In this document: one piece after another, positions 10,140-21,295 of the stretch
How the letters are laid out: the number at the start of each line of letters is the position of its first letter
Numbering within the stretch: the first letter of the stretch is position 1
From: an uncultured Erysipelotrichaceae bacterium
GTDB taxonomy: Bacteria; Bacillota_I; Bacilli_A; Erysipelotrichales; Erysipelotrichaceae
Length of the DNA: 37,093 nt
NCBI GenBank assembly: GCA_900314905.1
Contig: OMXA01000016.1
Span: forward strand, 1-37,093
Direction: 5' to 3'
The notes under the pieces: generated by a model
Databases searched by the model: none
What the model saw: the letters and a program-made list of their open reading frames with translations, nothing else
Told to the model about the DNA's origin: nothing
Program-made: the position numbers and the translations under genes

Positions 10140-10167
10140 ATGACAATTTCCAAAACCCGCTTATAAT
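10140..10167 (+). promoter_or_regulatory. Promoter of the CobW-type GTPase pair
   Basis: -35 ATGACA (10140-10145), 16-base spacer, perfect -10 TATAAT (10162-10167). An upstream ATG at 10166 overlaps this -10 and so cannot be the translation start; ATG at 10196, with GAAGG just before it, fits instead. Confidence 0.7.
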
Positions 10168-10195
10168 GAGGATGCGAAAAAGAAAGAAGGTAGTT

Positions 10196-11269
10196 ATGAC
10201 AAAAGTAGATGTAATTTCCGGATTCCTCGGGGCCGGAAAGACAACTCTGATCTCAAAGCTGATCAAAGATGTTTTCCATGGCCAGAAGGTAGTCCTTGTA
10301 GAAAATGAATTCGGCGAAATCGGCATTGACGGAGGATTCCTGAAGGAGTCCGGCATTGAGATCCGCGAAATAAACAGCGGCTGCATCTGCTGCACCCTGA
10401 AAGGTGATTTTGAGAAGTCTCTGCAGCAGGTCATCGACACCTATCATCCGGACCGGATCATCATTGAGCCTTCCGGAGTCGGAAAGCTTTCCGATATCCT
10501 GCGGGCAGTGAAAACAGTCAGCGGGGTTGAACTGGACAGCTACAGCACTGTGGTCGACGCAGCTCGCTGCAAAGTGTATCACCGGAATTTCAAGGAATTC
10601 TTTGACGATCAGATCGCAACTGCATCCTGCGTCATTCTTTCCAAAACCCAGAATGTGGACGAGGCAAAGCTTGAGGCGGATACAGAAATCATCCGTGAGC
10701 TGAACCCAGATGCGAGAGTCATCACCACCCCATGGGATGAGCTTTCCGGACAGGCAATCTTCGATGCGATGACCGGTGCATCCAGCGGCTTCCCGGAAGA
10801 TCTCGGAGAAGATGACGAAGATGAAGAACATGAACATGATGAGCATGAACATCATCATGAACATGATGATCACGATGAGCATGAACATCATCATGAACAT
10901 GAAACCGATCCGAATGAAGGACTCTCTGAAGGAAACCGGATCCATCTGGGAGAGGATGAGCACGAGCATCACCACCATCACCATCATCACGGAGAACATG
11001 ATGCTGATGAAGTCTTTGATTCCATCGGAATCGAAACCATCAATCATTACTCTGAAGAAGAAATCCGCACTGCGCTCAGCAAGCTAGGCGACAACATTGT
11101 CCGCGCAAAGGGAATTGTTCCGGATCATGAGAATGGATGGATCTTCTTCGACTTCGTCCCAGGCGATATCGATGTCCGCAGAGGAAGCCCCGCATATACG
11201 GGCCTGATCACCGTCATCGGAGAGCACGTTGATCTTGGCCAGATCAAAGAAATCTTCCAGGTGAAGTAA
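10196..11269 (+). CDS. CobW/COG0523-family GTPase with long His-rich metal-binding segment
   Basis: A 357-residue G3E-type P-loop GTPase. Walker A GFLGAGKT (9-16), the metal-site motif CICC (63-66) after EFGEIGIDGG, and IIIEPSGVG as the Walker B/G3 region. About residues 205-285 form a Glu/Asp/His-rich segment with runs such as HEHHHEHDDHDEHEHHHEHE and an eight-His block. The C-terminal CobW_C domain follows (GIVPDHENGWIFFDFVPGDI). Such proteins act as metal chaperones, often for zinc under scarcity; which metal or client is used here is unknown. The start at 10196 is chosen on RBS and promoter position. The next gene begins 4 bases after the stop. Confidence 0.9.
   Translation: MTKVDVISGFLGAGKTTLISKLIKDVFHGQKVVLVENEFGEIGIDGGFLKESGIEIREINSGCICCTLKGDFEKSLQQVIDTYHPDRIIIEPSGVGKLSDILRAVKTVSGVELDSYSTVVDAARCKVYHRNFKEFFDDQIATASCVILSKTQNVDEAKLEADTEIIRELNPDARVITTPWDELSGQAIFDAMTGASSGFPEDLGEDDEDEEHEHDEHEHHHEHDDHDEHEHHHEHETDPNEGLSEGNRIHLGEDEHEHHHHHHHHGEHDADEVFDSIGIETINHYSEEEIRTALSKLGDNIVRAKGIVPDHENGWIFFDFVPGDIDVRRGSPAYTGLITVIGEHVDLGQIKEIFQVK
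10838..10902 (+). repeat. Two exact 29-base direct repeats encoding His/Glu-rich units
   Basis: The same 29 bases occur at 10838-10866 and 10874-10902, a period of 36 bases (12 residues), inside the His-rich part of the CobW gene. The repeat keeps the frame, so the segment probably grew by slippage or unequal recombination. Confidence 0.85.
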
Positions 11270-11273
11270 TCCG

Positions 11274-12215
11274 ATGCCGACTCCTGTGTATCTTTTTACC
11301 GGTTTCCTAGACAGCGGAAAAACAACGCTGATCAGACAGACCATGGACGACCCTCAGTTCATGGAAGGCGTCCAGCGTTCTCTGATCCTATGCTTTGAAC
11401 AGGGAGAAACCGAATATGACGAGCAATTTCTCGATTCTCACAACGCATTCGTAGAGTATTTTGATTCTCCGGATCAGCTCACGAAAGAGCGGATGAGAGA
11501 GCTCGACACAATCTACCACCCTTCATTCGTCTTCATCGAATACAACGGCAGCGTCCCGATCAGCGATACTCTGCTTAGTGAGATGCCGGATTTCTGGCCG
11601 CTGGTGCAGATCCTGACGACCGTCGATGCAGGGACCTTTGAATCCTATATCAGCAACATGCGTTCCATGATGTTCGAGCAGCTTCGATACAGCGACACGG
11701 TGATCGTCAACCGCTGCACGCCCGATACCAACGGCCGCATGCTGAGAGGCAACATCAAAGCAATCAATCGCAGAGCACAGATCTATTATGAAGGAAACTT
11801 CGGAGAACCTGTGGAGCTGAAAAGCGGCACTCTTCCATTTGACCTCAATTCAGAAGTCATCGACATCAAAGATGATGACTATGGTCTCTGGTATATGGAC
11901 TGCACGGAAGACCCAGAAAAGTATGATGGCAAGACTGTCGTCCTGCGCGGAATGTATGCAGAAAACATCCCCGGATATCACCAGTCATTCATCCTCGGCA
12001 GAAGAGCAATGGTATGCTGCAATGCAGATACCAGCCTCTGCGGCGTTACGGTTACCGGTGTGAAGATAGAAGAAATGAACCTTGGCGACTGGGTTGAGGT
12101 AGAAGGAACCTTCAAGCTCGTCGACATGGAAAACGGCGGCAAGACTGTCGTTCTTTACGCAAAACGAATTCAGCACTGCAAAGAGCCTGAGGATCCCTAC
12201 GTCTATTTCAGCTGA
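11274..12215 (+). CDS. CobW-like GTPase fused to a DUF1980/YcgQ-like C-terminal domain
   Basis: A 313-residue protein. Residues 1-190 are a shortened CobW-type GTPase: P-loop GFLDSGKTTL and FVFIEYNGS as the Walker B region. The CxCC metal motif is absent (ILCFEQGETEYDEQF lies there), and the NKxD-type base-recognition loop is VIVNRCTPD. Residues 205-310 resemble the C-terminal domain of DUF1980/TIGR03943 proteins: GKTVVLRGMYAEN, FILGRRAMVCCNADTS, then GDWVEVEGTF. In other Bacillota that domain belongs to a zinc-regulated protein encoded near a permease and a CobW GTPase; here it is on the GTPase itself and no permease is in the window. It forms an operon with the His-rich GTPase. Confidence 0.75.
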   Translation: MPTPVYLFTGFLDSGKTTLIRQTMDDPQFMEGVQRSLILCFEQGETEYDEQFLDSHNAFVEYFDSPDQLTKERMRELDTIYHPSFVFIEYNGSVPISDTLLSEMPDFWPLVQILTTVDAGTFESYISNMRSMMFEQLRYSDTVIVNRCTPDTNGRMLRGNIKAINRRAQIYYEGNFGEPVELKSGTLPFDLNSEVIDIKDDDYGLWYMDCTEDPEKYDGKTVVLRGMYAENIPGYHQSFILGRRAMVCCNADTSLCGVTVTGVKIEEMNLGDWVEVEGTFKLVDMENGGKTVVLYAKRIQHCKEPEDPYVYFS

Positions 12216-12479: not shown

Positions 12480-13205
12480 TCAATCTTCAATCGGGATCGA
12501 AGGATGGCAGCGAGACACCATGCCAGCATGAACAATCTTCACGCCAAGATATTTACGCATCAGATCCTGCAATTCTTCCAGTGCGTTCTGAAGATCGGCA
12601 GTACGTTCCGGTTCCACGTTTTCCATCAGGATGATCTCATTGTGCGTATCATCTGTCACTTCGGTCCGGCGGCCATCCCGCCAGTTGAAGCAGCGGCATA
12701 CTGCTCCAGCTTCGTCGTAATAAGCAATTTCTCCGGGCAGCGGAGGATCCTGTTCTTCCGATCCGATCGGAATGAAATCTTCCCCTCCCTTCATCGCGCC
12801 AAGATGAAGATCTCCTCTGATCTGATCAAGATTCTCCACGCCGATCGGAAATGCATATTTCAGAGAAATCGCATTGGTGATGTCAACGGCAGGTGCAATC
12901 ATCCCGACCGGCTTTCCGTGAAGAATGCGTTTCAGGAGATTCTCAATGGAGCATCTCGCCCCCTTTTTGCCAGGGAACTTCTGATATGCGGCGCGCCATA
13001 CCGCCGGCACATGATTCTCGCTGATCACATCGCTGGTCAGGAACTTCCGCGCTGCCTGATTTGCCTGTTCAAGGAGAATCCGGATTTCTTCCCTCTGAGC
13101 TTCTGAAAGTTCTCTGAATGTCTCAGCATTTTTCACAGAGAGCACAGCAATTTCCACATCCGGGAACAGCTCCCAGAAGCTCTCATCCGCTATGAATTGT
13201 TTCAT
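12480..13205 (-). CDS. B3/B4 tRNA-binding domain protein
   Basis: A 241-residue stand-alone version of the B3/B4 domain found in the phenylalanyl-tRNA synthetase beta chain, where it edits misacylated tRNA. Recognisable parts are VPAVWRAAYQKFPGKKGARCSIENLLKR, then VDITNAISLKYAFPIGVENLDQI, and the later FNWRDGRRTEVTDDTHNEIILMEN stretch. Free-standing members are common in Bacillota and are suspected amino acid or tRNA quality-control proteins, without a firm assignment. AAGGA precedes the ATG. Its start lies inside the end of the AraC gene (23-base overlap), so the two are co-transcribed. Confidence 0.82.
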   Translation of the reverse strand: MKQFIADESFWELFPDVEIAVLSVKNAETFRELSEAQREEIRILLEQANQAARKFLTSDVISENHVPAVWRAAYQKFPGKKGARCSIENLLKRILHGKPVGMIAPAVDITNAISLKYAFPIGVENLDQIRGDLHLGAMKGGEDFIPIGSEEQDPPLPGEIAYYDEAGAVCRCFNWRDGRRTEVTDDTHNEIILMENVEPERTADLQNALEELQDLMRKYLGVKIVHAGMVSRCHPSIPIED

Positions 13206-14508
13206 CTTGCTTTCCTTTCTTTTTTGGTTTCAGCCGTTCTGAAGCTTCTGATCCATCCGTTTTCTGAAGGGTTATGGAATTGCGGAACGCAGAAGGAGTC
13301 ATCTGCTTCAGCTTGTAGAAGTTCAGATTGAATGTCTTGATATTGTTATAGCCCACCCGGATTGCGATATCAAAGATCGGAATATCTGTTTCCGTCAGGA
13401 GCTTGCATGCCTCATTGATCCGGATGAACGTCAGCAGGCAATCAAAGTTCCGCTCTGAATAGAACAGCAGTGCTCGGTTCATCTGCGGAATTGACACCCC
13501 GACTTTGCTTGCCACTTCATCCGCCGTAAGATGTTCCTGATCAAAATTCTGATATAAATAATCTGTAATGCGGAAAGCCACGTCCTTATCGGTCTTATTG
13601 CAGTTCGTTTTCACTTTGCTGTAGATCTTGCGATAGCGGATCGGGGTGACCCCTACTCTTGCCACAAAGTGCTTCGTCAGATGAGACGCATCAACAAAGC
13701 CGAGCAGATCAGCAATTTCATTCAGGGTCAAGCTGGTGTAGATCAGGTAATCAGATGCTTTTTCTATGCGGATGCTGCTGAGCAGCTTTGAGAAAGAAGT
13801 CCCTGTAAGTTCCTGAAGCTGTTTCGCAACGGATGATTCCGACATGAACAAAGCTTTTGCCGTCTGCTCCAGCGTCAGTTTTTCGGAGGAATGCGCATAG
13901 ATATAACTCATGATCGGTTCCTGGGTAATCCGATTCACCTCATGACTTTCACCACGCAGCGACATGATATACCGACGATACATAATCATCAGTTCCAGAA
14001 TCTTGTTAGTGGTAAACAGAAAAGTAAGCGGCTTATTCGGAGGTGTCATTCTGACCGATTCTACGCCAAGCTCTTCCTTCAGCTGATCCATAATTCCGTC
14101 AATTGCTTCTGCCTGCACGGAATCAAGGTAGATTACCGGCTCAGCAGTGATGAAGCGCAGCAGTTCTACGCTGTCTTCCTCAAAACCCACCGTAGTCTTG
14201 AGCACTGTATTGATATACTGATAGTCATAGACCACTTTAATGAGCTGGAGCGTTTCCTCAACTTCCGTCACATCCGAGATCTTCCATGGTGTGATCGATA
14301 CAAGCATATTCGGCCGGATCTCATAGGTTTCTCCATCAATCACGATCGTTCCTCTGCCGCGCTTGAAATACAGAAATCTTGCCGCCTGATGCATCAGTGC
14401 TTTCGTCGGTCTTTCAATGGCTTCATAGTCGAAGGAACAGACAGAAGTAGGGTCTGCTTCCGAAGTCAGATTATCCTGCAGTGTTACCTGCCTACATGTT
14501 TTATTCAC
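13183..14508 (-). CDS. AraC-type regulator with two tandem AraC DNA-binding domains
   Basis: A 441-residue regulator starting at GTG, with AGGA-type sites just upstream. Residues 1-150 look like a cupin-type sensor domain (FKRGRG-type strands; ETYEIRPNMLVSITP). Residues about 205-305 are a full AraC HTH domain (LTLEQTAKALFMSESSVAKQ; LTLNEIADLLGFVDASHLTK; GVTPIRYRK). Residues about 320-425 are a second one (LTADEVASKVGVSIPQMNRA; IFDIAIRVGYNNIKTFNLNF; MTPSAFRNSI). One AraC domain already has two HTH units, so this protein carries four. It lies directly downstream of the ADI operon on the same strand and is the best candidate to control it. Confidence 0.85.
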   Translation of the reverse strand: MNKTCRQVTLQDNLTSEADPTSVCSFDYEAIERPTKALMHQAARFLYFKRGRGTIVIDGETYEIRPNMLVSITPWKISDVTEVEETLQLIKVVYDYQYINTVLKTTVGFEEDSVELLRFITAEPVIYLDSVQAEAIDGIMDQLKEELGVESVRMTPPNKPLTFLFTTNKILELMIMYRRYIMSLRGESHEVNRITQEPIMSYIYAHSSEKLTLEQTAKALFMSESSVAKQLQELTGTSFSKLLSSIRIEKASDYLIYTSLTLNEIADLLGFVDASHLTKHFVARVGVTPIRYRKIYSKVKTNCNKTDKDVAFRITDYLYQNFDQEHLTADEVASKVGVSIPQMNRALLFYSERNFDCLLTFIRINEACKLLTETDIPIFDIAIRVGYNNIKTFNLNFYKLKQMTPSAFRNSITLQKTDGSEASERLKPKKKGKQDETIHSG

Positions 14509-14602: not shown

Positions 14603-16048
14603 TCAGCCCAGGATTACCATAGCACCAGTAAGAACCACAGCACTGAAGATTGCAATGATCATCAGGAGCTTTCCAGCCCACTTCACCCATGTTTCATAAG
14701 GGATTCTTGCAAGTGCAAGGCCGCCCATGATGAATCCGCAGGTCGGTGTGAACAGATTGACCAGTCCATTTGCCGCTACCGTGATCATGATTGAAGTTTC
14801 AACCGACCAGTTCATTCCTGCCACAATCGGGGATACGATCGGGGAAGAAAGAGCTGCAAGGCCGGAAGAAGACGGAACCAGGAAACTGAGACCCACATGG
14901 AGCAGATAGTCCAGGAAAGCGAATAGACCGCTGGACATGCCGCTGTTGGTAAGCCCGGTAACAGAGATCTGAACAATCCAAGCACCAAGCCCGGTTTCTG
15001 CCATGAGAACTGAAGTTGCACGAGCCAGCGCAATGACAACGTTTACGCTGATCATGTCTCCGAAGCCGCTCATGATGACATTGACCATGTGCTTCTTGTC
15101 CTTCATTCCAACCAGACCGATGATGATTCCCATCAGAAGGAACCAGGTCGCCGCGTCGTCAAACCACCAGTCACCGAACTGATTCCCGGTGAGGAATGAA
15201 GACCATCCGAAGAAGCTGTATGCACCGCCTTCTCCGAAAGAACCCCAAGGAATAAAGCCGAGGATCATTACGATGAAGGCAAGAGCGAATAATCTCAAGC
15301 AGACCTTCTGCTTGGAGGAAAGCACCGGATTATCTTCGATCTCAGTTGCGCCGCCATAAGCAGCCTTGCAGACTGCAAGCTGATCTGCAGTCAGGATCGA
15401 TCCTTTGGTCTTCATGACCTTCTTTGCATACCGCAGAACAAACCAGACCGACAGGCCATAAGTTCCAAGGCAGAGAATCAGGCCTTCCGCATATACGATT
15501 CCCATGTTGACAGGAACTCCGGCAGCAGCTACTGCCGCACCTGTCGCAAATGGGTTGATCGTGGAGCCGAGAACTCCGGATCCCGCGCCGAGCAGAACCG
15601 TGGCTGCTCCGACAATCGGGTCCATGCCAGCTGCAGTCATGGTTGCAGCAAGAAGAATATAGAATCCAACCGTTTCTTCGCCCATGCCATAGGTTGTTCC
15701 GCCGATGCAGAACAAAGCCATCAGAATCGGAATCAGGCGAAGTTCATTTCCATGCATCTTCCGAACCAGAACATGGATTCCGGTTTCCAATGCACCTGTC
15801 GAATTGACCAGGCCGAGGAAGGCTCCAAGGCAGAACACGAAGCCGATGACATCACTCGCATCATGGAATCCGGCAATCGGTGCCATGAGAATCTGAGAGA
15901 ACGAGGCTGCTGCGACGGTTCCTTCATTTCCATCTGCATCAATATATGGCTTTCCAGCTGCGAGCCAGGTCATTGCTGAAACCAGAAGCAGAACGATTAA
16001 GAGTATTGTAAATGTGTTCAGTGATCTCTTTTCTTTTTTCTGACTCAT
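14603..16048 (-). CDS. ArcD-like/YfcC-family membrane transporter of the ADI operon
   Basis: A 481-residue polytopic membrane protein with about a dozen hydrophobic segments. It begins with a basic tail and a first helix (TFTILLIVLLLVSAMTWLAAG). Features of the YfcC/AbgT-like group include GGTTYGMGEETVGFY, GAGSGVLGSTINPFATGAAV and FLVPSSSGLAALSSPIVSPI. YfcC-family carriers sit in many ADI operons and are taken to exchange arginine or citrulline for ornithine; the substrate cannot be read from the sequence. It lies 29 bases after arcC with an AAGGGG site, as the third gene of the operon. Confidence 0.85.
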   Translation of the reverse strand: MSQKKEKRSLNTFTILLIVLLLVSAMTWLAAGKPYIDADGNEGTVAAASFSQILMAPIAGFHDASDVIGFVFCLGAFLGLVNSTGALETGIHVLVRKMHGNELRLIPILMALFCIGGTTYGMGEETVGFYILLAATMTAAGMDPIVGAATVLLGAGSGVLGSTINPFATGAAVAAAGVPVNMGIVYAEGLILCLGTYGLSVWFVLRYAKKVMKTKGSILTADQLAVCKAAYGGATEIEDNPVLSSKQKVCLRLFALAFIVMILGFIPWGSFGEGGAYSFFGWSSFLTGNQFGDWWFDDAATWFLLMGIIIGLVGMKDKKHMVNVIMSGFGDMISVNVVIALARATSVLMAETGLGAWIVQISVTGLTNSGMSSGLFAFLDYLLHVGLSFLVPSSSGLAALSSPIVSPIVAGMNWSVETSIMITVAANGLVNLFTPTCGFIMGGLALARIPYETWVKWAGKLLMIIAIFSAVVLTGAMVILG

Positions 16049-16077: not shown

Positions 16078-17016
16078 TTATTTCGTTATGACTGTTCCCG
16101 TTTTCCCTTCGAGAGCTTCCGCCGCCCGCGCAAGTGAGGTGATCAGAGCAGTTCCTCCGGTCTGATTCTGTTTCACAAACTCAATGCACGACTCAACTTT
16201 CGGAAGCATGGATCCTGGAGCAAATTCCTTTTCCCTGATCAGTTCTTCTGCTTCAGATACTGTCATTGCAGAAAGTTCCTTCTGGTCCGGCTGGTTGAAA
16301 TGGACGCATACACGATCCACAGCCGTGAGGATGATCAGCTTATCCGCATGAATGTCACATGCAAGCAGGGCACTCGAACGATCCTTGTCAATGACTGCAG
16401 CGACTCCTTTCAGACCTTCCGGTGTCTCAATCACCGGAATTCCGCCGCCGCCGACCGTGATCACGATATCCCCCGCATTCACAAGCTGCTCTACAACATC
16501 AAGCTCCACGATCCGTTTCGGAATCGGAGAAGGAACTACCCTCCGGTATCCCCTTCCCGAATCTTCTACGAATGCAAATCCTTTTTCAGCAGCAATTGCT
16601 TCTGCTTCTTCTTTGCTGTAAAAGCTGCCTACCGGTTTTGTCGGGTGTGCAAATCCAGGATCTTTCTCATCAACTACGACCTGGGTAATGATCGTTGCAC
16701 ACTGTTTCCGGATCCCGCGGCGCTTCAGCTCTTCCTGGATTGCCTGCTGCAGGTGATAACCAATATATCCCTGCGACATTGCACCGCATTCCGGAAATGG
16801 CATATATGGAGTTTTCCCGCCATGATTTGCTGAAAATTCCATTGCCAGGTTGATCATTCCGACCTGCGGTCCATTGCCATGTCCGACAATCACTTCATAG
16901 CCAGCTGCCGCCAGGTCTGCAATGGTTCTGGCAGTATGCTTCACGAGTTCAAGCTGCTCTTCCGGAGTCTTGCCAAGCGCATTTCCTCCCAGAGCAACTA
17001 CAATCCGCTCCGCCAT
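16078..17016 (-). CDS. arcC: Carbamate kinase
   Basis: A 312-residue amino-acid-kinase-fold enzyme of normal length. It takes phosphate from carbamoyl phosphate to make ATP, the energy-yielding step of the ADI pathway. Signatures: VALGGNALG at the N-terminus, VGHGNGPQVG for the carbamate site, RRVVPSPIPKRIVE, and VGGGGIPV plus DKDRSSALLA for nucleotide binding. The start is 3 bases after the stop of the arcA-arcB fusion, so the two are translated from one mRNA and may be coupled. Confidence 0.95.
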   Translation of the reverse strand: MAERIVVALGGNALGKTPEEQLELVKHTARTIADLAAAGYEVIVGHGNGPQVGMINLAMEFSANHGGKTPYMPFPECGAMSQGYIGYHLQQAIQEELKRRGIRKQCATIITQVVVDEKDPGFAHPTKPVGSFYSKEEAEAIAAEKGFAFVEDSGRGYRRVVPSPIPKRIVELDVVEQLVNAGDIVITVGGGGIPVIETPEGLKGVAAVIDKDRSSALLACDIHADKLIILTAVDRVCVHFNQPDQKELSAMTVSEAEELIREKEFAPGSMLPKVESCIEFVKQNQTGGTALITSLARAAEALEGKTGTVITK

Positions 17017-17019
17017 GGC

Positions 17020-19173
17020 TTATTTCAGAGTTGCATACATGACCGCTTTGATGGTATGCATGCGGTTCTCTGCCTCCTGGAACTGACGAGCCTGATGACC
17101 GAGGAATACATCATCCGTAACTTCCATCGCTTCCAGTCCGTATTTCTGGTAGATATCTTCTCCGATCGTCGTATTGCGGTCATGGAAAGAAGGCAGGCAA
17201 TGCTCGAAGATTGCTGTTGGCTTAGCCTCTGCCATCAGTTCTTTATTGACCTGATAAGGACGGAGCAGATTGATTCTGTCTGCCCAGAGCTCCTCCGGTT
17301 CACCCATGGAAAGCCAGATATCGGTATAGAGGACATCTGCGCCTGCTGCACCGGCTTTCGGATCATCCGTGAATTCCAGCTTTGCTCCGGTCTCTGCAGC
17401 GATCTTCTCGCAGCGTTCAATCAGTTTCTGATCCGGCATCAGAGCCTTCGGACCGCAGGCACAGAAATGCATGCCGAGCTTTGCGCTGACCACCATCAGA
17501 GAATTTGCAACGTTATTGCGAGCATCACCGAAGAATGTCAGCTTGCGGCCGCGCATATCTCCGAATTCTTCCCGTGCCGTCATGACATCTGCCAGCATCT
17601 GAGTCGGATGGAAGTCATCTGTCAGACCATTCCATACCGGAACACCAGAATACTTTGCAAGGTCTTCAACGACTGACTGCTTGTAGCCGCGGTATTCGAT
17701 ACCATCAAACATCTTCCCGAGCACCTTTGCAGTATCTTCCAGCGATTCCTTCTTCCCCATCTGAGAAGATTTGGAATCCAGGAAAGTAACGCCCATGCCA
17801 AGGTCCCGCGCGCCCACTTCGAATGCACAGCGAGTGCGAGTAGATGTCTTCTCGAACAGCAGCACTACCTGTTTTCCTTTCAGGAAACTATGATCAACGC
17901 CATTTGCTTTCAGCTTCTTGAATTCTGAAGCCAGATCGAGGAGATAATTGATTTCCTCCGGAGTAAAATCCAGGAGTGTCAGAAAGCTTCTTCCTCTGGA
18001 AAGCTCAGCCGAGCTCATCTCAATCACGGTGATTCCATGAGCGCGGAGAATATCGTTCGTCACTTCATTCCGCTGATAGACAACGATCTTTCCAGGTGCG
18101 ATTGCAAGTGTATTGGAGCCGTCATTCCACTGCTCCCGTGCTGCTGCAATCAGATCGTCACCGCCGCACTTGATCAGTTCAACATGGTCTGTCTCCGTAT
18201 ACTTCTCGAGGATGCTTTCCAGGGTTCCATCTACACGGCGGATTCTGAGATTCGCGGGATCTTCTCCCGGAGTGATTTCATATACAGTGAGCGGTCCGAG
18301 AATCGCAGGGTGAACCGTATATTTGTTTGTGTCAATCTGTGTGAATACAGTATCCAGATGCATGAATGCGCGGGATACCGGAATGTCAAAAGCAAGTACA
18401 GTCCTGATCTTTGCATTCGGATCGGAGAACAGATTGCGTGAAACAGTCTCAATGGCATCCGGTGAAGTACGCTGCGAAATCCCGATTGCAAGAACTGATT
18501 CGGTCAGATTCAGCACATCGCCTCCTTCGATATTGCGAGGCATCGTCCGATCATAGTATCTGGTAACCAGACCCTCGAAATCCGGATGATAGCGGAAGAT
18601 ATAATCTGCATAAATCGTTTCGCGATTTCTGGTCGGGAAACGCATCCGATGCAGGAATACGCCATTCCCTACCGAAGCAAACGGATCACGGGTGAAATAG
18701 AGATTCGGCATCGGGTCGATGATCAGGCTATCCGGCGGTGTGATCATATCCTGCAGAGAGTAGGAAGAATAATCGGTTCCCAGTTCCTTGAGAGAGATTC
18801 CTTCCATGGTCTTGAGAACAAGGTCCTTGCCATGGAAATTGGAAATCATATAATCGTAAAGTTTCTTCTGCCACTTTCTGGTCCGGATATTGCCTTCTTC
18901 CAGCCATTGGTAGAGAAATGGCTCTACCAGCTCCGGATGGAGTTTCAGCACTTCCGTCATGAGATCTTCGAGATAGACAACTTCAGCTCCATTTTCCCTT
19001 AAGATCTGTGCGAACTCATCATGCTCTGCCTGAGCAACTCTGAGATACGGAATATCATCAAACAGCAATTCCTGCAGACGATCCGGTGTCAGCATCAGGA
19101 GCTCATTTCCAGGCCGGTGAAGAAGCACTTTCTTCAGCGGCTTGATTTCGCTCCGGACATTAATTCCCTTCAT
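17020..19173 (-). CDS. arcA-arcB: In-frame fusion of arginine deiminase (lacking its catalytic Cys) and ornithine carbamoyltransferase
   Basis: A 717-residue open frame. Residues 1 to about 393 are arginine deiminase: NLYFTRDPFA (Asp), NIEGGDVLNL (Glu) and HLDTVF (His, Asp) keep four catalytic residues. At SSAELSRGR, where ADI should go on with GGPRCMSMP and its nucleophilic Cys, the chain instead becomes the start of ornithine carbamoyltransferase (SFLTLLDFTPEEINYLLDLA). That half is complete: FEKTSTRTRCAFE and HPTQM for carbamoyl phosphate, FEHCLPSFHD at the active site. ADI activity should be lost; the OTC half could still split citrulline. I chose the start at 19173 because AGGAGG stands 5 bases upstream; an upstream ATG at 19197 has no such site. 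An assembly error at a short homology (AGAGGAAGA, 17989-17997) must be excluded. Confidence 0.88.
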   Translation of the reverse strand: MKGINVRSEIKPLKKVLLHRPGNELLMLTPDRLQELLFDDIPYLRVAQAEHDEFAQILRENGAEVVYLEDLMTEVLKLHPELVEPFLYQWLEEGNIRTRKWQKKLYDYMISNFHGKDLVLKTMEGISLKELGTDYSSYSLQDMITPPDSLIIDPMPNLYFTRDPFASVGNGVFLHRMRFPTRNRETIYADYIFRYHPDFEGLVTRYYDRTMPRNIEGGDVLNLTESVLAIGISQRTSPDAIETVSRNLFSDPNAKIRTVLAFDIPVSRAFMHLDTVFTQIDTNKYTVHPAILGPLTVYEITPGEDPANLRIRRVDGTLESILEKYTETDHVELIKCGGDDLIAAAREQWNDGSNTLAIAPGKIVVYQRNEVTNDILRAHGITVIEMSSAELSRGRSFLTLLDFTPEEINYLLDLASEFKKLKANGVDHSFLKGKQVVLLFEKTSTRTRCAFEVGARDLGMGVTFLDSKSSQMGKKESLEDTAKVLGKMFDGIEYRGYKQSVVEDLAKYSGVPVWNGLTDDFHPTQMLADVMTAREEFGDMRGRKLTFFGDARNNVANSLMVVSAKLGMHFCACGPKALMPDQKLIERCEKIAAETGAKLEFTDDPKAGAAGADVLYTDIWLSMGEPEELWADRINLLRPYQVNKELMAEAKPTAIFEHCLPSFHDRNTTIGEDIYQKYGLEAMEVTDDVFLGHQARQFQEAENRMHTIKAVMYATLK

Positions 19174-19478: not shown

Positions 19479-21137
19479 TTACATCTTATCCGGGGCACTG
19501 ACACCAATCAGATCCAATGCATTCTTCAAGGTGATGGAAGCCGCTTTCACCAGGCCGAGGCGCTCATTAGTCAGTTGGGGATCATCAGGATTGTTGACCT
19601 TGCAGCTGTTGTAATAGCTGTGATAGATCTTGACGAGATTCAGAATATATTCCGTGATCTTATTTGGCTTGCGGATCGCAGCAGCATTTGCAACTTCAGA
19701 CGGGAACTCATTGATCAGCTTCATGATCTGAAGTTCCTTCGGATCGGTCAGACGCCCGTAATCATCCGTCGGCGTATATGCAGGAATGTCGGGGTTATGA
19801 AGAATCGAATGCATGCGGCTGTATGCATACTGCGCATAATATACCGGATTGTTATTGTCTTTCGTTCTTGCAAGCTTCATATCAAAGTCCATATGCGTCG
19901 CAACATCCTTCGAGACAAAGAACCATCTTGCCGCATCCGTTCCGACATCCTCGCAGAGCTCACGCAGGGTGATCGCATTGCCGGTACGCTTGGACATTTT
20001 AACTTCTTTTCCGTCTTCTACCATGCGGACCATCTGAATCAGATCCACCTCAAGTGTTCCTTTCGGATAGCCCAGAGCAGTGAGGGCACACTGCATGCGG
20101 GTTACATAGCTATGATGATCTGCACCCCAGAGATCTACCAGTTTCGGATATCCGCGCTCCACTTTATAAACATGGTTTGCAATATCCGGAGTCAGATACG
20201 ACAGGGTTCCGTCGCTCTTGCGGAGTACCCGGTCCTTATCGTCTCCATACTCCGTGCTTCTGAACCAGAGGGCACCATCTTTTTCATAGGTCAGCCCCAT
20301 ATCATTCATCCGCTGGAGCACCTTCCGGATCCGTTCGCTGTCATTCTCATAGAAGAACGTCTCATGCATCCAGGAATCGAAGTGAACCCCATACAGATCC
20401 AGGTCCTTCTGGATCTTTGCCAGTTCTCTGCGGACGCCTTCTTTCTTGAAATATTCCAGTCTTTCCTTCGGGTCAGCCTCGAGCCATTTCTCGCCATCAT
20501 GTTCCGCGATATCGTTTGCAATATCGATGATATCCTGAGCATGATATCCTTCTTCCGGGAGCGGATAGCTCTTCCCGAAATGTTCATAATATCTGGAAAT
20601 GAGTGATTCCCCAAGCATGACAATCTGGTTGCCGGCATCGTTGATATAGAACTCTCTCAGAGTATCATACCCGCTAGCTTCAAGCAGTCTGCAGATGCTG
20701 TCTCCCCATGCCGCATTTCTCGCATGGCCGCAATGCAGATCGCCGGTCGGATTTGCAGAAACCCACTCTACGAGAATTTTCTTTCCCTTGCCGGTTTCAT
20801 TATGACCATAATGATCTCCTGCCTCGATGACTTTATTGATGCAGTCAGAAAGCGAAGATTCTGCAATCCGGAAGTTGATGAAGCCAGGCTTCACCGCTTC
20901 AATGCTCCGAGCTTCCGGCAGCTTTTTTTTCAGTTCTTCCACGAGCGGTTCAGCTATCTGCATCGGGCTCTTATGCAGAGTCTTGGCAAGACGCATCGCA
21001 ACACTTGTGGAGTAGTCTCCCATCTTCGGATCCTTTGGGGTTTCTACCATCAGCTGTCTGTCATCCGGATCAATCCCGAATGCAGTCCTGACGGCAGCTC
21101 TGGAAGCTTCCAGAATCTTGGCAGAAAAGTCACTCAT
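19479..21137 (-). CDS. argS: Arginyl-tRNA synthetase
   Basis: A 552-residue class I synthetase of normal length that charges tRNA-Arg. The N-terminal Add-1 domain recognises the tRNA D-loop. The HIGH-type motif is in SANPTGDLHCGHARNA and the KMSKS-type motif in EVKMSKRTGNAIT. The DALR anticodon-binding domain closes the protein (residues about 440-552). GGGAG precedes the ATG. It lies between tRNA-Arg(ACG) and the arc operon, all on the same strand, each separated by its own terminator. Confidence 0.97.
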   Translation of the reverse strand: MSDFSAKILEASRAAVRTAFGIDPDDRQLMVETPKDPKMGDYSTSVAMRLAKTLHKSPMQIAEPLVEELKKKLPEARSIEAVKPGFINFRIAESSLSDCINKVIEAGDHYGHNETGKGKKILVEWVSANPTGDLHCGHARNAAWGDSICRLLEASGYDTLREFYINDAGNQIVMLGESLISRYYEHFGKSYPLPEEGYHAQDIIDIANDIAEHDGEKWLEADPKERLEYFKKEGVRRELAKIQKDLDLYGVHFDSWMHETFFYENDSERIRKVLQRMNDMGLTYEKDGALWFRSTEYGDDKDRVLRKSDGTLSYLTPDIANHVYKVERGYPKLVDLWGADHHSYVTRMQCALTALGYPKGTLEVDLIQMVRMVEDGKEVKMSKRTGNAITLRELCEDVGTDAARWFFVSKDVATHMDFDMKLARTKDNNNPVYYAQYAYSRMHSILHNPDIPAYTPTDDYGRLTDPKELQIMKLINEFPSEVANAAAIRKPNKITEYILNLVKIYHSYYNSCKVNNPDDPQLTNERLGLVKAASITLKNALDLIGVSAPDKM

Positions 21138-21218: not shown

Positions 21219-21295
21219 TGGTGCGCCGAACAGGAGTCGAACCCGCAACCTTTTGATTCGTAGTCAAATGCTCTATCCAGTTGAGCTATCGGCGC
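21219..21295 (-). tRNA. tRNA-Arg (anticodon ACG)
   Basis: 77 nt. Acceptor GCGCCGA / TCGGCGC, anticodon stem TTTGA / TCAAA around loop CTACGAA (anticodon ACG, the normal TadA substrate read as ICG), T arm GCGGG-TTCGACT-CCTGT, encoded ACCA end. Confidence 0.96.

Follow-up and report, generated by a model that had tools for sequence, protein, structure and literature searches.

An uncultured Erysipelotrichaceae bacterium carries, in its arc operon, a single gene in which an arginine deiminase (ADI, the product of arcA) that lacks its nucleophilic cysteine is joined in frame to an ornithine carbamoyltransferase (OTC, the product of arcB). The gene lies in a stretch of 37,093 nucleotides (contig OMXA01000016.1, assembly GCA_900314905.1), the whole of which we refer to as the window. 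We think it probable that a small in-frame deletion abolished the deimination of arginine and that what is left of the module suits citrulline. Below we set the fused gene beside its relatives in the genus and beyond, weigh the ways in which the join may have arisen and discuss how the operon may now be used.

The fused gene and its operon

The features listed here are on the minus strand and are given by their positions in the window.

13183..14508, minus strand: AraC-family regulator, with a homologue after the exchanger gene of loci L102 and L108
14556..14579, minus strand: terminator-like stem-loop directly 3' of the exchanger gene (pattern match only)
14603..16048, minus strand: ArcE-type exchanger (PF03606), sharing 37% identity with the transporter encoded in arc cluster L081 of Streptococcus parasanguinis
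16078..17016, minus strand: arcC, carbamate kinase of 312 aa (TIGR00746, 387.8 bits, over the cut-off of 358.25)
17020..19173, minus strand: fused arcA'-arcB gene, a truncated ADI joined in frame to OTC, 717 aa (open reading frame and family matches)
17020..17988, minus strand: OTC half, with the two transcarbamylase domains and unaltered at 73 of 73 near-invariant columns
17980..18006, minus strand: junction region, ELSRGRSFL (codons GAG CTT TCC AGA GGA AGA AGC TTT CTG)
17989..19173, minus strand: ADI half, residues 1-395, with Asp163, Glu216, His272 and Asp274 kept and without GGPRC and all beyond it
19479..21137, minus strand: argS, arginyl-tRNA synthetase, upstream of the arc genes; the sole PF00750 match in the draft genome

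The reading frame runs from an ATG at 19173, with an AGGAGG (read by eye) immediately 5' of it, to a stop codon at 17020-17022. At the join the listed codons continue with ACA, so that ELSRGR is followed directly by SFLT and no stop separates the two halves; absent at this point by comparison with relatives are the ADI tail (GGPRCMSMPL.R.D), the arcA stop codon, the spacer, and the arcB start with the first residues of its product. GC3 is similar in the two halves (0.52 and 0.55), and as both match curated families at E <1e-130, chance is not an issue. The fusion is therefore confirmed in the sequence, although it is known from one draft assembly (76 contigs, 94.6% complete and 3.8% contaminated). 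The preliminary description, in which ADI runs up to SSAELSRGR and then becomes OTC, holds in its coordinates and in its account of the gene by open reading frame, family models and junction codons; the GGPRCMSMP stretch with the nucleophilic Cys is missing as described, and the loss is larger, the last ~14 ADI residues being gone. By eye, the internal ATG of MSSAELSRGR could serve as a start for free OTC, with a good ribosome-binding site absent.

The genes downstream complete an arc operon. The products of arcC and of the exchanger gene match their families over the full length, and the order arcA-arcB-arcC-exchanger-araC recurs in two related loci (L102 and L108) whose ADI and OTC are 79% and 85% identical to those of the window. 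The exchanger aligns with the S. parasanguinis transporter at 37% identity (E 1e-87), and that transporter is itself taken to be ArcE from its position after arcC, as described for S. pneumoniae in extracts of PMC5300872. The terminator-like pattern occurs 6 times in the region against a mean of 7.8 in shuffled sequence. Two stretches of the AraC-family regulator match HTH_18, and the protein may carry two DNA-binding domains in tandem. On the other side of the operon, a tRNA-Arg(ACG) gene (21219-21295) lies beside argS on the same strand; extracts of PMC5300872 place argS upstream of the arc cluster of Lactococcus lactis as well. Elsewhere in the window, at 10166-12215, are two adjoining genes for CobW-type GTPases, of which the second has DUF1980 as its C-terminal domain.

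A deiminase without its nucleophile

Family models give a divided picture of the ADI half. The NCBIfam arcA model TIGR01078 matches residues 4-395 over profile positions 1-393 of 408 and scores 441.5 bits, below its cut-off of 489.1, and the ADI subfamily model PRK01388 matches over positions 4-390 of 405 at 432.6 bits, above its cut-off of 414, so that a profile alone would label this half an ADI. The Pfam ADI match ends at position 366 of 377, and in a comparison with solved structures the top-ranking ADI, 4bof chain A, is aligned over its residues 7-397 of 411.

The nucleophilic cysteine of GGPRC is found in all 103 aligned ADI relatives and is absent from the fusion. Of 76 ADI columns at least 98% conserved in these relatives, 69 are kept and the seven that are lost belong to the deleted tail, meaning that outside the tail every near-invariant ADI residue (69/69) is retained. 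Without its cysteine an ADI cannot form the covalent thiol intermediate, and from this established chemistry we infer that the ADI half is dead. The remaining catalytic residues had been described as intact, and they are: D163, E216, H272 and D274 are present in the window and invariant in the ADI alignment, and their equivalents are listed for Mycoplasma penetrans ADI beside the nucleophile Cys440 in extracts of PMC3474736.

A nearly complete OTC

The OTC half keeps 73 of 73 near-invariant columns when compared with 123 OTC relatives, and both of its domains are complete (OTCace_N, PF02729, positions 1-148 of 148; OTCace, PF00185, positions 2-156 of 157). It scores 399.2 bits against TIGR00658, over the cut-off of 280.85; the narrower OTC model PRK04284 matches residues 393-716 over positions 5-330 of 332, at 489.4 bits and under its cut-off of 515. 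The OTC motifs STRTR, HCLP and SMG can be read in the translation. What is missing is the start codon and about the first 5-6 residues, where genus relatives begin MGVNVRGRSFL and similar. The earlier view that the whole OTC half is intact thus stands for the conserved columns and the two domains and fails for the extreme N-terminus.

By analogy with characterized OTCs, the nearly complete OTC half has probably kept its catalytic trimer. In M. penetrans OTC the contacts between trimers are made mainly by helix 1 together with residues from both chain ends (extracts of PMC3474736), so a domain fused at one end may prevent dodecamers without stopping catalysis; the same extracts state that trimers of the Pseudomonas aeruginosa enzyme are said to retain cooperativity. 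The attached ADI may, however, also make OTC unstable or keep it from assembling.

Relatives with separate genes

Forty of the 71 genomes searched in the genus gave a match (E up to 1e-90), 25 of them with ADI, the genome of the window included, and 15 with OTC only. GGPRC is kept in all 24 of the other genomes with an ADI match. In 22 of these 24 loci arcB adjoins arcA, and a stop codon lies between the two in every case (22/22); no arcB was found in the stretch read for the remaining two (L004 and L008). Related strains had been proposed as the place to look for the same fusion or for separate genes, and in these 22 genus loci arcA and arcB are separate. The genus loci L117 and L118 match parts of L075 and L036, respectively, with 100% identity across 4179 bases. 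No arcB-arcC pair without arcA was seen in 11 loci from the 15 OTC-only genomes, read with up to 1.5 kb on each side, in which a single locus (L013) had a short, weak arcC match.

A scan of genome contigs found GGPRC in 80 of 80 loci, these being the best 80 of 582 related stretches. Over 110 loci taken together the motif is present in 89, of which not one is a stop-free fusion; the other 21 are the window and 20 loci that match OTC. Likewise, no other stop-free full-length match was found among genomes of the genus (71), family (273), order (316), class (395) and phylum (392) at E-value limits of 1e-200 (family and order), 1e-170 (class) and 1e-180 (phylum); these sets overlap, those for class and phylum are samples of larger groups, and limits this strict would miss distant fusions. 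The five family relatives within the limit have the motif intact with a stop after it. Among plasmid records 560 matched, and the ten matches listed are in two pieces.

Several candidates were examined and rejected. Many tblastn matches span residues 1-717 in one frame and are not fusions, as stops lie between the genes; a class genome (G329) matching over 4-716 has a TAA between its genes; and long open frames of 750-812 aa (G016, G026, G068, G088 and G090) and of 767 aa (G723) that resembled fusions also contain stops. As a separate observation, the arc operons of five loci (L111, L112, L115, L120 and L037) have an OTC 82-84% identical to that of the window with an ADI only 56-58% identical, and read NLCVGRGGPRC rather than ELSRGRGGPRC; in these operons arcA may have been exchanged for another copy.

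The rest of the draft genome

One check suggested at the outset was for a second, intact arcA elsewhere in the genome. Protein and Pfam searches of the draft found no second ADI, and that possibility is rejected. The same genome yielded no further N-terminal domain of the OTC/ATC type (pyrB type included) and no argininosuccinate synthase (argG), with a single weak arginase-family match of 44 bits. In 14 control genomes, ADI was matched in 3, an OTC/ATC-type domain in 14 and argG in 14. Absence from a draft that is 94.6% complete is not proof, and the lack of argG and of a separate pyrB-type domain suggests a need for arginine and pyrimidines from outside. Many other members of the genus show weak transcarbamylase matches, which are read as ATC type from their identity and range.

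Origin of the join

The fusion is found in no other genome searched and is most likely the product of a recent small deletion. The locus has the layout of its relatives minus about 70-120 bp: in the 22 genus pairs, the distance from the codon run before GGPRC to the [RS]GR near the arcB start is 71-119 bp, and this gives the estimated size of the deletion. The proposal that an in-frame deletion joined arcA to arcB is therefore well supported. On this reading, some 70-120 bp from the 3' end of arcA to the 5' end of arcB would have been removed in frame to yield one chain of 717 aa. The putative trigger is strand slippage, for which both genes offer a short AGAGGAAGA-like stretch that encodes Arg-Gly-Arg.

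Shared Gly-Arg codons may have guided this deletion, judging from the codons in related loci. Relatives have Arg-Gly-Arg or like codons just 5' of GGPRC in arcA and [RS]GR near the start of arcB, and AGA GGA AGA itself is present in some copies of arcA (for example L003, L117 and L119) and some of arcB (for example L002, L111 and L115). None of the genus relatives has these nine bases at both ends, and it counts against the scheme that words shared by the ends reach no more than 8 bp in the genus and 10 bp elsewhere.

Age of the probable deletion

Trees were built for the 102 taxa, the window among them, common to ADI and OTC. In both, the window falls near L031-L035, L102 and L108, with a different sister in each: in the ADI tree it belongs to a clade of 9 (support 0.988), and in the OTC tree it joins L112, L111, L037, L115 and L120 (support 0.308). 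For ADI and OTC, respectively, the window has a terminal branch of 0.16 and 0.14 and a mean distance to the outgroups of 1.56 and 1.00. The corresponding ADI and OTC branches of L102 (0.10 and 0.06) and L108 (0.08 and 0.03) are shorter, as is expected when the window has no close relative in the set. Set against its OTC branch, the ADI branch of the window is not long, which argues against any particular speed-up of the ADI half.

Because many pairs have synonymous distances that are saturated or undefined, the comparison was limited to dN: the ADI:OTC ratio is 1.22-1.66 in six pairs that include the window and 1.26-5.44 in fifteen other pairs. By conserved residues, branch lengths and dN alike, no relaxed selection on the ADI half is seen. 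Under a neutral model, sparing 69 conserved sites among 395 allows at most about 16 changes at the 5% level, whereas roughly 64 changes are estimated for the whole ADI terminal branch of the window, and the deletion therefore fell late on that branch or the ADI fold has still been constrained. With an ADI half free of decay, the deletion may be young, or the fold may be needed to keep the chain sound.

Competing readings of the locus

The strongest competitor, which we regard as unlikely though worth keeping in view, is an ordinary loss of function in which OTC, tied to a truncated ADI, folds wrongly or is broken down, leaving a young pseudogene in a single strain. The removal of the final part of ADI, the restriction of the fusion to this one genome among those searched and an absence of decay that fits a very young event are all compatible with this. 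However, the reading frame has been kept even though arcA-arcB spacing is a multiple of three in only 5 of the 22 genus pairs, so an in-frame product is not automatic (such spacing in 74 of 76 loci from the tblastn scan is taken to reflect the way in which that scan orders its matches), and the near-invariant OTC residues have been kept beside an arcC and an exchanger that are still full length.

Somewhat less probable again is an artefact of assembly or a minority variant, with the contig joining ends that are separate in most cells. The fusion does come from a single source, one draft assembly. Yet words common to the two ends reach 8 bp at most among the 22 genus pairs, 6 bp among 5 family pairs and 10 bp among 76 others, with a median of 6 bp in each of the three sets; assembly word lengths are usually 21 or more. 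Shared words of 10 bp or less are normally too short for an assembly collapse, and the join is accordingly more likely real than artefactual. The preserved frame also speaks against an artefact, as does the lack of a second ADI match and hence of any contig with a separate full arcA. A chimeric contig made from different organisms is not preferred either, since GC3 is alike in the two halves and both trees place the window among the same relatives, if on different branches.

Least of all do we favor a new job for the dead ADI half, which would tune OTC by binding arginine or by serving as a scaffold for assembly: apart from the tail, its near-invariant residues are kept, its dN ratio is not raised in pairs with the window and there is a precedent in the inactive dihydroorotase needed for ATCase assembly (extracts of PMC4581275), but a recent deletion accounts equally well for the conservation and no second genome with the fusion was found. 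The bolder form of this idea is a long shot: the fusion would be natural and fixed, its dead ADI would sense arginine or serve assembly for a citrulline-using OTC, and cellular arginine would gate citrulline phosphorolysis.

A proposed switch to citrulline

A recent small deletion that ended deimination and spared the remainder of the operon is the reading we prefer, and on it a switch to citrulline use is plausible. The operon would no longer convert arginine to citrulline; the ArcE-type exchanger would import citrulline against ornithine, OTC would split the citrulline and carbamate kinase would make ATP, which together would constitute a short ADI route. The earlier suggestion that the cell may be a citrulline user gains support, by analogy, from the ArcE-family exchanger in the cluster and from the ArcE-ArcB-ArcC route proposed as a short citrulline pathway in extracts of PMC5300872. 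The same extracts report that S. pneumoniae ArcE translocates citrulline efficiently and has a far higher affinity for arginine.

If the fusion is real and fixed, it would represent a one-step route by which an arginine fermenter comes to depend on other organisms for citrulline. It would then also put the proposed short ADI pathway to a clean natural test and be an unusual fusion of two consecutive pathway enzymes of which the first is dead. If it is a deletion in a single strain, it is simply an example of operon decay.

Comparison with known systems

The titles and abstract openings retrieved from the literature describe neither an ADI-OTC fusion nor a cysteine-less fused ADI, and the novelty of this one is unproven. 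In the extracts of PMC5052871, on evolution of the pathway, the word "fusion" occurs twice, for cloning kits and not for ADI-OTC; those of PMC3124536 and PMC6423177 describe no case of arcA loss; and PMC8947608, in the part available, concerns ADI systems without arcC.

The closest match is to the Streptococcus-type operon of arcA-arcB-arcC with an ArcE-type exchanger, which has the same enzyme order, the same three enzyme families and the same exchanger family; the difference is that here arcA and arcB are one gene and ADI is without its nucleophile. The window likewise holds all three parts of the short ADI pathway set out in extracts of PMC5300872, namely an exchanger of the ArcE family, OTC and carbamate kinase. 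In the citrulline users cited there, the ADI pathway was active as well, whereas the window has a broken ADI that forms one chain with OTC.

Pseudomonads offer a parallel for a transcarbamylase that retains a dead partner enzyme: in them, an inactive dihydroorotase accompanies aspartate transcarbamylase (cited in extracts of PMC4581275). That dihydroorotase is a separate subunit and, by the title cited there, is required for assembly, whereas for the ADI half of the window such a role is only possible. For metabolism, the nearest parallel is Clostridium carboxidivorans P7, described without ADI in extracts of PMC8520249, which gains ATP and growth from citrulline and which likewise has OTC and carbamate kinase without a working ADI; in that organism ADI is reported absent, and in the window it is instead fused to OTC.
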